Under the pieces are notes generated by a model. It worked only from the letters and a program-made list of their open reading frames with translations, was not told where the DNA came from and ran no database searches. DNA of 64,000 bases from positions 124,001-188,000 of the forward strand of contig JAQXNX010000014.1 in assembly GCA_029098225.1 (NCBI GenBank), written 5' to 3'. The position numbers were made by a program, and so were the translations under genes. This DNA comes from Spirochaetales bacterium (lineage in GTDB: Bacteria; Spirochaetota; Spirochaetia; Treponematales; Treponemataceae). This document shows, in pieces, positions 12,665 to 17,266 of the stretch; position 1 is the first letter of the stretch, and the number at the start of each line of letters is the position of its first letter.

Positions 12665-12784
12665 TAGCGTCTCCCTTTTTAAAATTATAGAAAAATCAAT
12701 CCCATAAACTTTTATTTGTAAACTAAATTATATTGATTCTTTATTGTTTATGCAATACAATGATTTTGAACATTTTGCTATACT

Positions 12785-12855
12785 TCCGCCGATTTATCCA
12801 AATTGCAGGGCGGACTTCTTCTCGTATGAGGGGAAAAATCTTGCTAAATAGGAGA
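12785..12855 (+). promoter_or_regulatory. SAM-II-type riboswitch upstream of metK
   Basis: TCCGCC-GATTTAtCCaaATTGCAg-GGCGGA stem-loop plus 3' GCTAAAtAGGAG, matching the remembered SAM-II core (GAUUUAaCCguAUUGCA ... GCUAAAaAGG); extra 8-bp hairpin at 12816-12835. Confidence 0.85.
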
Positions 12856-12860
12856 CTTAT

Positions 12861-14063
12861 ATGTCTGTCTTATCTAACAATCATTATTTATTTACTTCTG
12901 AATCTGTTGGTGAAGGTCACCCGGATAAGCTTTGTGATCAGGTTTCTGATGCCGTTCTTGATTATTGTCTTTCTTTGGACCCTGATGCTCACGTTGCCTG
13001 TGAATCTTTTTCTTCTACAGATTTCCTTTTAGTTGGTGGAGAAATCGGTTTTCAGAAACAGGGAATTGATCTTAAAGAATTCAATCGCAATGTAGAAAAA
13101 ATTGCCCGAGGTGTTGCTTTGGACATTGGCTACAATTCGCCTGATGTTGGTCTTGATGGTGCAAACTGTTTATTCATGAACAGGCTTCATGCACAGTCTG
13201 CAGATATTAATCAGGGCGTTGTAGGAAAAGGTCTTGATGAATATGAAGGTCAGCAGGGAGCTGGCGACCAGGGTATGATGTTTGGTTTTGCCTGCAACGA
13301 AACTCCAAGTTTGATGCCTTCTCCGGTTTATTATTCACACCAGATTCTTTTAAGGGCTCACGAATTGCGCCATTCAGGAAAAATTGCCTGGCTTCGCCCT
13401 GATGCAAAGTCTCAGGTAACAGTTGAATATGACGGATTTAAGCCTGTTCGTATTGATACAGTTGTAGTTTCTCATCAGCATAATCCAGATGTAGATTACG
13501 ATACAATCAAAAAGACGATTATTGAAGAAATAATTAAGCCGGTTCTTGAGCCAACAGGACTTTTGAAGGGTGATACAAAATATTTTATTAACCCGACAGG
13601 AAAATTCGTAATTGGAGGTCCTGACGGAGATTCCGGATTAACAGGACGTAAGATTATTGTAGATACTTATGGTGGAATGGGTCGTCATGGTGGTGGAGCC
13701 TTCTCTGGAAAAGACCCATCTAAGGTAGACCGTTCGGCTGCTTACATGGCACGTTATATTGCAAAAAATATTGTTGCAGCAGGCCTTGCAGACAGAGCTG
13801 AAGTTGAACTTGCTTATGCAATTGGAGTTCCATTCCCAGTTTCTATTATGGTTGAAACTTTTGGAACAGAAAAAGTTGAACGTTCAAAAATTGTTGCTGC
13901 TGTAGAAAAGATTTTTGATTGTACTCCAGCCGGAATTATTAAAACTCTTCAGCTTAAGCAGCCAATTTATCGTAAAACAGCTTCGTATGGTCATTTTGGC
14001 CGCGAAGGTTTTCCATGGGAAAAGACAGACAAAGCTGAAGAGCTTAGAGCTGCCGTTAAATAA
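12861..14063 (+). CDS. metK: S-adenosylmethionine synthetase
   Basis: [24 protein letters not shown] ... [34 protein letters not shown]. Confidence 0.98.
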
Positions 14064-14081: not shown

Positions 14082-14645
14082 ATGGCTAACACAAAAGGAA
14101 AATCAATCATTCGTCAGGTTGTAGCAATTGGTATTGGTGCTGCAATCTTTGTTGCATTGACTACAGTGCAGATTCCAGTTGGATTTATTCCAAACACAGC
14201 TCTCCAGGTAAGGGCTGCTGTTCTGGCTTTCTTCTCTGTTGTATTTGGCCCGGTTGCAGGTTTTGCTATTGGACTTATCGGCCATGCTCTTGGAGATGCA
14301 ATTTTTTACGGCAGTATATGGTGGTCTTGGGTATTTCCGGATGCAATTTTTGGTCTTGTAGTTGGATTATTTGCAAAGAAATATGCTGTAGAAGAAGGCG
14401 GATTCGGACTTAAACAGTGTGTTCTTTTTAATGTTGTTCAGATACTCGCAAATGCAGCTGCCTGGATTCTTGTAGCTCCAGTTCTCGACATTCTTATTTA
14501 TAAAGAGCCTGCAAACAAGGTTTTTGCACAGGGTGTAACAGCTTGTATCTGTAATCTTGTTGTAACAGCTATTCTTGGAAGTCTCCTTGCATTTGGCTAT
14601 TCAAAAATTAAAACAAAATCATCTTCATTAAAAGAAGAAGCTTAA
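14082..14645 (+). CDS. ECF transporter S component (UPF0397-like)
   Basis: QVRAAVLAFFSVVFGPVAGFAIGLIGHALGDAIFYGSIWWSWVFPDAIFGLVVG. Confidence 0.85.
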   Translation: MANTKGKSIIRQVVAIGIGAAIFVALTTVQIPVGFIPNTALQVRAAVLAFFSVVFGPVAGFAIGLIGHALGDAIFYGSIWWSWVFPDAIFGLVVGLFAKKYAVEEGGFGLKQCVLFNVVQILANAAAWILVAPVLDILIYKEPANKVFAQGVTACICNLVVTAILGSLLAFGYSKIKTKSSSLKEEA

Positions 14646-14655
14646 AATGAAAAAC

Positions 14656-14698
14656 AGCCAGTTTTAGAAAATAAAAATCTAAGGCTGGCTTTATTTTT
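14656..14698 (+). terminator. Rho-independent terminator after the ECF S component
   Basis: AGCCAGTTTTAGA-loop-TCTAAGGCTGGCT (with G-U pairs) then TTATTTTTTA. Confidence 0.75.
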
Positions 14699-14715
14699 TA
14701 CGGAATGCAGAAGAA

Positions 14716-16446
14716 ATGCCTCCAGTTATAGAATTCAAGAATTTTTCCTATAAATATAGAACTCAGACTAATCCAACTCTTAAAAATATCAATTTTACAA
14801 TCAATGAAGGTGAAAAAGTTCTTATTATAGGTTCTTCAGGTTCCGGAAAATCAACAATTGCAAAATGTATTAATGCACTGATTCCTTCATCTTACCCGGG
14901 AAAAATTGAAGGGCAAATAACAGTCTGTGGCCTTAATCCGGAAAAAGAAGGAATATTCAGTATGTCTAAACATGTCGGTACAGTTTTGCAGGATACCGAC
15001 GGACAATTCATAGGACTTACAGTTGCAGAGGATATTGCTTTTGCGCTGGAAAACGATAACACTCCTGTGGAAGAAATGCATAGAAAGGTTCTGGAAGCAG
15101 CAAAGACTGTAAATGCAGATTCGTTATTAAATTCTGTTCCGGGAGCATTAAGTGGCGGGCAGAAGCAGAGAGTTTCTCTTGCAGGAATTCTTGTTGATGA
15201 TGTAGATATTTTTTTATTTGATGAACCGCTCGCAAATTTAGATCCTGCAGCCGGAAAAAAGATTATTTCACTTATAGACGAAATTAATAAAAATCAGAAA
15301 AAGACAATAATTATAATAGAACATAGACTTGAAGATGTTTTGTATAAAAATGTCGACCGCATTATAGTTATGGAAAACGGAGAGATTGCGGCAGATACAA
15401 CTCCAGAGAAGCTTTTATGTACAAATCTTCTTCCTCAAAAAGGAATTCGGGAACCGCTTTATATTTCGGCATTAAAATATGCAGGCTGTGTTTTGCAGCC
15501 GGAAGAAAAACCCGAACATGTAGACACAATAAATATTGAACCGCATAAAGAAAAGCTTTTATCCTGGTTTACAAAAATCGAAAAGCCACTTGAAGAGCCT
15601 CAAAAACCTGTAGCACTTGAACTAAAGAATGTTAGTTTTAAATACGATGAAAATGCTCCGCTTACTGTAAAAAATGTAAGTTTTTCTATTCACAGAGGTG
15701 AGATGGTAAGTATAGTTGGTACTAATGGCGCGGGAAAATCTACTATAGCTTCTTTAATCTGTGGATTTAATGTTCAGAATGAAGGTCAAATTTTACTTGA
15801 CGGAGAAGATATTACAAAGCTTTCAATAAAAGAGCGTGGCGAAAGAATTGGTTTTGTTTTACAGAATCAGAATCAGATGATTTCAAAAAGTATAATTTTT
15901 GATGAAGTTGCGCTTGGTCTTGTTGTCAGAAAAGTTCCAAAAGAAGAAATAAAAGAACGTGTAAATAATGCTCTTAAAATTTGTGGAATGTATCCATTCA
16001 GAAACTGGCCTGTGAGTGCGATAAGCTTTGGTCAGAAAAAACGAGTAACAATTGCTTCTATCCTTGTAATGAATCCGGAAGTTATTATTCTGGATGAACC
16101 TACAGCTGGTCAGGATTATGCGCATTATACAGAAATTATGGAATTTTTGCGCAAGCTGAATCGGGAACTTGGAATTACAATAATTATGATTACTCATGAT
16201 ATGCATCTTATGCTTGAATACACAGATCGCGCAATTGTAATTTCAGATGGTCAGGTGCTTGCTGATGGAAAAAGTTCTCACATTCTGACAGATGAAAAAA
16301 TTACAGAAGCAGCAAGCCTTAAAAAAACAAGTCTTTACAATCTTGCGGTAAAATGCGGAATAAAAAATCCTTCTGAGCTGGTAGACAGTTTTATTTATTA
16401 TGAACGGCAGAACAGATTCAAAGAGGAGGAAAAACAGAATGGCTAG
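14716..16446 (+). CDS. ECF transporter, duplicated ATPase (EcfA1-EcfA2 fusion)
   Basis: Two ABC cassettes: GSSGSGKST/LSGGQKQRVSLAG and GTNGAGKST/ISFGQKKRVTIAS. Confidence 0.92.
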   Translation: MPPVIEFKNFSYKYRTQTNPTLKNINFTINEGEKVLIIGSSGSGKSTIAKCINALIPSSYPGKIEGQITVCGLNPEKEGIFSMSKHVGTVLQDTDGQFIGLTVAEDIAFALENDNTPVEEMHRKVLEAAKTVNADSLLNSVPGALSGGQKQRVSLAGILVDDVDIFLFDEPLANLDPAAGKKIISLIDEINKNQKKTIIIIEHRLEDVLYKNVDRIIVMENGEIAADTTPEKLLCTNLLPQKGIREPLYISALKYAGCVLQPEEKPEHVDTINIEPHKEKLLSWFTKIEKPLEEPQKPVALELKNVSFKYDENAPLTVKNVSFSIHRGEMVSIVGTNGAGKSTIASLICGFNVQNEGQILLDGEDITKLSIKERGERIGFVLQNQNQMISKSIIFDEVALGLVVRKVPKEEIKERVNNALKICGMYPFRNWPVSAISFGQKKRVTIASILVMNPEVIILDEPTAGQDYAHYTEIMEFLRKLNRELGITIIMITHDMHLMLEYTDRAIVISDGQVLADGKSSHILTDEKITEAASLKKTSLYNLAVKCGIKNPSELVDSFIYYERQNRFKEEEKQNG

Positions 16447-17266
16447 AATTATTACTTATAAAGAAAAAGATTGTTTTATTCATAGATTATGCGGGCTTAC
16501 AAAGCTTATTTTCTTTATTTTGTGGACACTTACTACAATGCTTACTTACGATACCAGAGTTCTTGGTGTAATGCTTGTTTCAAGTATAGTAATTTTTAAA
16601 TTTTCTAAAACTGACTGGAAACAGGTACGCTCTATTTTCTGTGTTGTTCTTTTATTTTTGACCATTAATGTTCTTGCTATTTTTTTATTTTCGCCTTATG
16701 AAGGCTGCAAAATTTATGGTTCGCGAATTGATTTATTCCGCATTACAGAAAGATATACAATAACGGCTCAACAGCTTTTTTACGAACTTAATGTTGTACT
16801 TAAATATTTTACAATTATTCCTTCCGTGTTTATGTTTATTACATCAACGAATCCAAGTGAATTTGCCGCAAGTTTAAATAGAATAAAGTTGCCGTATACA
16901 GCAAGTTATTCAGTTGCAATTGCCTTGCGATATGTTCCGGATGTTCAGACAGATTTTAATAGAATTAAAAATGCGCAGGAAGCACGCGGAATAGAAATGT
17001 CTTCCAAGGCAAATATTTTTTCCAGAATAAAAAATATGAGTGCAATTTTATTTCCGCTTGTTTTTACGAGTATGGAAAAAATCGATTCTGTTACAAATGC
17101 AATGGAGCTTCGGGGATTTGGAAAACATAAAGCACGAACCTGGTATTCTGCCCGCAGATTAAAGAAATCTGATTATATAATTATTTTTCTTACAGTAGTT
17201 TTTTCTGCTGTGGCATTAATTATAACTTTTTGGAAGGGAAGCCGATTCTGGAATCCGTTTGTTTAA
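16440..17266 (+). CDS. ECF transporter transmembrane T component
   Basis: CbiQ/EcfT-like ...AQEARGIEMSSKANIF...NAMELRGFGKHKART; overlaps the ATPase stop. Confidence 0.9.

Follow-up and report, generated by a model that had tools for sequence, protein, structure and literature searches.

A riboswitch candidate of the SAM-II/SAM-V kind with an additional hairpin in the metK leader of Treponema

The metK locus and the anatomy of its leader

The window, that is, the whole stretch of 64,000 nucleotides of DNA analysed here, contains a metK gene on the forward strand (12861..14063). Its product is methionine adenosyltransferase, the enzyme that makes S-adenosylmethionine (SAM), as revealed by a match to TIGR01034 (565 bits) and by the N, M and C domains of the Pfam S-AdoMet_synt set. 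No second metK was found in the genome. The host is a Treponema of the rumen/gut type; metK and a Treponema-type host had both been named in the original prediction, and both are supported. Eighteen nucleotides after metK begin the genes of an ECF transporter (14082-17266), which encode a riboflavin-type S component, a double ATPase and a T component, and no terminator was found between metK and these genes. An S component adjoining metK was not seen in other Treponema metK loci. The suggestion that the downstream ECF genes belong to a conserved unit controlled by the leader element was rejected, such an arrangement being present in 0 of 54 loci with room for such genes.

Direct reading of the sequence confirmed a two-part core and a P1 stem in the metK leader, at the place reported in the original prediction; all features described below are on the forward strand. 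The 5′ strand of P1, TCCGCC (12785-12790), pairs with GGCGGA (12809-12814), and the loop between the two strands reads GATTTATCCAAATTGCAG. The L1 part of this loop, GATTTATCC (12791-12799), includes UUU, assigned as the third strand of a predicted P2 triplex, and UCC (12797-12799), assigned as the anti-Shine-Dalgarno strand of the short helix P2a. The remainder of the loop, AAATTGCAG (12800-12808), includes the 5′ strand of the putative pseudoknot helix P2, ATTGCAG (12802-12808). In the spacer, between P1 and GCTAAA, the minimum-free-energy fold places a hairpin of 8 bp, P3 (TTCTTCTC-GTAT-GAGGGGAA, 12816-12835), which was absent from the original description. It is followed by the 3′ strand of P2, TGCTAAA (12842-12848, with GCTAAA itself at 12843-12848), a single T (12849) and the Shine-Dalgarno sequence AGGAG (12850-12854). 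The GGA of the latter (12851-12853) is complementary to the loop UCC and would form P2a with it. The P1 strands, the GCTAAA-T-AGGAG arrangement upstream of metK and this complementarity had all been claimed before and are present. The end of GCTAAATAGGAG lies at 12854, 6 nt upstream of the metK ATG (12861), and no terminator was found between the element and this ATG. A consensus scan detected a weak candidate promoter of the sigma-70 type, TTGATT-17-TACAAT (12733..12761), with a predicted transcription start near 12768; the scan gave 2 sites against 1.3 expected by shuffling, which makes this assignment a weak one.

The window contains a single copy of the two-part core, against 1.4e-6 copies per window and about 7e-5 per genome predicted by a dinucleotide model. 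It is present in 25 of 395 genomes of the phylum, and the backwards pattern was not encountered among the matches listed.

Distribution and conservation of the element

A pattern scan for the core with a spacer of 22-52 nt, covering one genome for each of 85,488 species, returned 90 long-spacer matches. Nearly all of them are in Treponema, and 83 have metK directly downstream; of the rest, three are close to the end of the available DNA and four do not precede metK. Among the matches listed by title, 77 of 80 belong to Treponema or another spirochaete, including T. bryantii, T. zioleckii and T. porcinum. Two non-spirochaete matches, in Methylovulum (L098) and Polynucleobacter (L125), have no matching P1 and look like chance occurrences, and the match in Polynucleobacter also lies opposite a long open reading frame. 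Viral contigs searched with the core pattern gave no match.

A covariance model built from Treponema-type elements only (R1) was run over 199 genomes of the order. Within the window's genus it matched strongly in about 27 of the 42 genomes listed; strong matches also came from three further genera of the family, and weaker ones from three more families. The weak matches L211-L217, which do not contain the full core, were treated as noise. The elements of other families that were examined mostly have short spacers without P3, with P3 present in some, and precede either metK or ahcY followed by metK, both genes of the SAM cycle. At metK in several Treponema genomes there is no such element, and it is likewise absent from the diverged second metK that some Treponema genomes possess. 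The form with P3 is common in Treponema, where dozens of species have it, and other families of the order possess shorter forms. The Treponema-type occurrence singled out by the original prediction is real, but it is not an isolated one.

Some of the Treponema metK leaders without the element (L230, L239, L242 and L243) share a hairpin with GCGCTCGC(T/C)AC. Rfam does not identify this hairpin as a regulator of metK; it is possibly another element of metK control or a repeat.

Covariation was assessed in 83 distinct sequences and nucleotide conservation in 89 aligned sequences. All six pairs of P1 show double (compensatory) changes, with 86.6% of cells paired, as do all seven modelled pairs of P3, with about 94% of cells paired. 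Taken together, the two stems contain 304 double-change cells against 87 in shuffled alignments, and none of 500 shuffles reached 304. When the partner strand was slid by 1-3 columns, only 8-70 such cells remained, and the signal persists on a plain MAFFT alignment that was not fitted to the structure. P3 is found in nearly all Treponema copies, its letters varying and its pairs being kept.

The core, by comparison, hardly varies. In the L1 loop the G is constant (89/89), the first U of UUU is kept in 86 of 89 sequences and the second and third in all 89, and GCUAAA is constant throughout this set. The predicted nucleotides of the ligand pocket, UUU, AUU and GCUAAA by comparison with the published SAM-V description (PMC6061858), are invariant or nearly so. 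The three UCC/GGA pairs of P2a are kept in 80, 83 and 81 of the 83 distinct sequences, a pairing on which covariation says nothing because it is nearly invariant. Four pairs of P2 (U-A, U-A, G-C and C-G) are complementary and invariant in 83/83 sequences and so uninformative by covariation; since most P2 pairs are of this kind, covariation cannot prove the pseudoknot. The next pair, which extends P2, is A-U in 71 of 82 Treponema elements; in other families it is G-C in 15 of 34 and mismatched in another 15.

Relation to known families and the proposed mechanism

The search with the Rfam model of SAM-II (RF00521), which had been put forward as a check of the original prediction, was negative for the window element. 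The models of SAM-II with long loops (RF01726) and of SAM-V (RF01826) also gave no match to it, even at E<=10; the curated cut-offs of the three families are 36 bits (RF00521), 44 bits (RF01726) and 41 bits (RF01826). A genome-level search with RF00521 also produced no match at the metK leader. RF01826 gave nothing except sub-threshold noise in the host's own genome and 40 relatives, and RF01726 gave scattered sub-threshold matches in 60 relatives, none at the metK leader. SAM-I (RF00162) was not found in the host's own genome, nor SAM-V in 299 genomes of the phylum of a beta-proteobacterial MAG. The short-spacer relatives score 24-30 bits with RF00521, which is below its cut-off.

A second covariance model, R2, was built from 24 short elements belonging to other families of the order only, the window's genus being left out. 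This model finds the window element with E=3.2e-6 and nothing else below E=0.4 in the 64 kb. It also finds nearly all of the 36 Treponema loci searched (E<0.1). Of 30 proteobacterial RF00521 sites it recovers about 20, the best of them with E=9e-10. Since R2 matches both the window element and proteobacterial RF00521 sites, the element is tied to SAM-II through an intermediate, and the weak matches of R1 in proteobacterial DNA also fall on SAM-II sites. It is not a formal member of RF00521, RF01726 or RF01826, because defining features of these families were looked for and not found in it. Its architecture makes the element a spirochaetal variant, with P3, of the SAM-II/SAM-V superfamily. The designation as SAM-II type in the original prediction holds as regards the likeness of the pseudoknot, for which conservation, covariation, the bridging model and the gene context speak, but not as regards membership in RF00521, and it did not provide for the extra P3.

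SAM-II-like elements were also met elsewhere. One genome from the window's own family has an element (L299:118-195) that reaches 45.2 bits with RF00521, above the cut-off, and precedes a cysteine-rich protein of 145 aa. Other spirochaetes contain SAM-II-like cores in L290 (in tandem, 670-740 and 890-956), L291, L294 and L298. The second copy in L290 and the cores of the three other loci directly precede a family of proteins of about 190-225 aa, which start like MYxIQxxVLEQMKEK and contain GYxNISKGCRRxDxFL; two members were tested and had no Pfam match. In other families of the order, SAM-II-like elements (L204:1985-2055, L205:798-868, L199 and L203) precede the gene of a protein without a confident family (211 aa in L204 and L205), a gene without an evident link to methionine. 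A beta-proteobacterial MAG contains two SAM-II-like cores within 500 bp (L244:808-1340), each before a small open reading frame.

The sequence of the leader, the covariation of P1 and P3, the near-invariance of the core and of UCC/GGA, the gene context and, through the intermediate model, the homology with SAM-II are shown by the analysis. The metK leader is highly likely to act in cis as a translational OFF riboswitch of the SAM-II/SAM-V pseudoknot kind, one that senses SAM and, by analogy, probably shuts metK off when SAM is plentiful. In the proposed mechanism, P1 and P3 would fold first, and SAM would then stabilise the P2 pseudoknot and triplex, in which the loop UUU meets AUUGC/GCUAAA. 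The formation of P2 would place UCC on the GGA of AGGAG as P2a and block the binding of the ribosome to metK. At low SAM the 3′ strand would stay free and metK would be translated, giving negative feedback on SAM. SAM binding, triplex formation and the OFF direction are what we infer from the homologous class. The occlusion of the Shine-Dalgarno sequence, as proposed originally, is supported by conservation, covariation, the bridging covariance model and the genomic context. A transcription-terminator mechanism was rejected, since no terminator was found and the Shine-Dalgarno sequence forms the end of the aptamer.

A SAM-V riboswitch proper (RF01826) seems an unlikely identity for the element. 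A P3 following P1 and a short P2a on the Shine-Dalgarno sequence, of 3 bp here, are indeed the features that separate SAM-V from SAM-II (PMC6061858), but RF01826 matches neither the window element nor, above its cut-off, anything in the 40 relatives, in a comparison made by the model and the published description. Moreover, the weak RF00521 matches of the short-spacer relatives concern elements that have no P3 and also stand before metK, which makes P3 look like a gain on a SAM-II-like ancestor, and the above-cut-off RF00521 element of the same-family genome (L299) also argues against SAM-V proper.

It is very unlikely that a SAM-II fold here responds to SAH, methionine or some other compound of the pathway instead of SAM. 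The target is metK, and the U, U and A equivalent to the nucleotides of SAM-V that anchor SAM and contact its sulfonium (PMC6061858) are unchanged, although some SAM aptamers are known to have variants with a different ligand (PMC10853860), and the element precedes ahcY in other families. Even less probable is a chance resemblance to SAM-II in a leader whose conserved structure is bound by a protein, or which acts as a passive or temperature-sensitive attenuator of translation. P1 and P3 are ordinary hairpins, as this explanation would have it, but the expected chance frequency of the core, the link to known SAM-II sites made by R2 and the identity of the near-invariant loop nucleotides with those of the SAM pocket all stand against it. 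The element is a real and well-conserved riboswitch candidate, and its working would be SAM-II/SAM-V-like.

We put at about even the chances of a broader evolutionary reading, in which spirochaetes possess a large unrecorded SAM-II/SAM-V branch of their own and Treponema has gained P3, and with it a SAM-V-like architecture on a SAM-II core. SAM-II and SAM-V would then form a continuum reached more than once, and the same core in other spirochaetes would also stand before genes without a known methionine link. The element would bring SAM-II-type control to the key SAM-making gene of a major rumen/gut genus, and it shows a whole branch to be missed by the Rfam models; as natural intermediates between SAM-II and SAM-V, such elements allow direct tests of the roles of P3 and of the spacer.

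Comparison with known SAM riboswitches

SAM-II has been published as a riboswitch of alpha-proteobacteria that is met a few times in other proteobacteria and in the Bacteroides group (PMC1273637). In Sinorhizobium it is reported to repress translation in vivo (PMC9373788). The literature searched, whose coverage was incomplete, gave no published account of SAM-II from spirochaetes, so that absence is not proven. The metK leader resembles SAM-II in its single P1 stem, in the core GAUUUAnCC..AUUGC ... GCUAAAnAGG, in the predicted P2 pseudoknot, in the association with methionine and SAM genes and in the overlap of the aptamer with the Shine-Dalgarno sequence, as in translational members of the class. 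It differs from SAM-II by the P3 hairpin in the spacer and by the lack of an RF00521 match; in addition, the Treponema element stands almost exclusively before metK, whereas the core target in proteobacteria is metY (PMC4239095).

SAM-II with long loops (RF01726), reported from Bacteroidetes and from marine samples, is listed as a variant of SAM-II (PMC2864571, Weinberg 2010). Its origin is different and its model does not match the metK leader, but its longer loops are a precedent for the extension of SAM-II loops.

SAM-V, a translational OFF switch, shares the SAM-II core and adds to it a P3 hairpin, absent in SAM-II, and a 2-bp P2a over the Shine-Dalgarno sequence (PMC6061858). It is known from marine alpha-proteobacteria and Bacteroidetes, its P1 has 4 bp against 6 bp here, the P2 lengths also differ, and its Rfam model does not match the window element. 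The two are alike in having P3 between P1 and the 3′ strand of P2, in the short P2a over the Shine-Dalgarno sequence and in the translational OFF model, and, by analogy, the U and A of TGCTAAA would be equivalent to U47 and A50, which anchor SAM in SAM-V.
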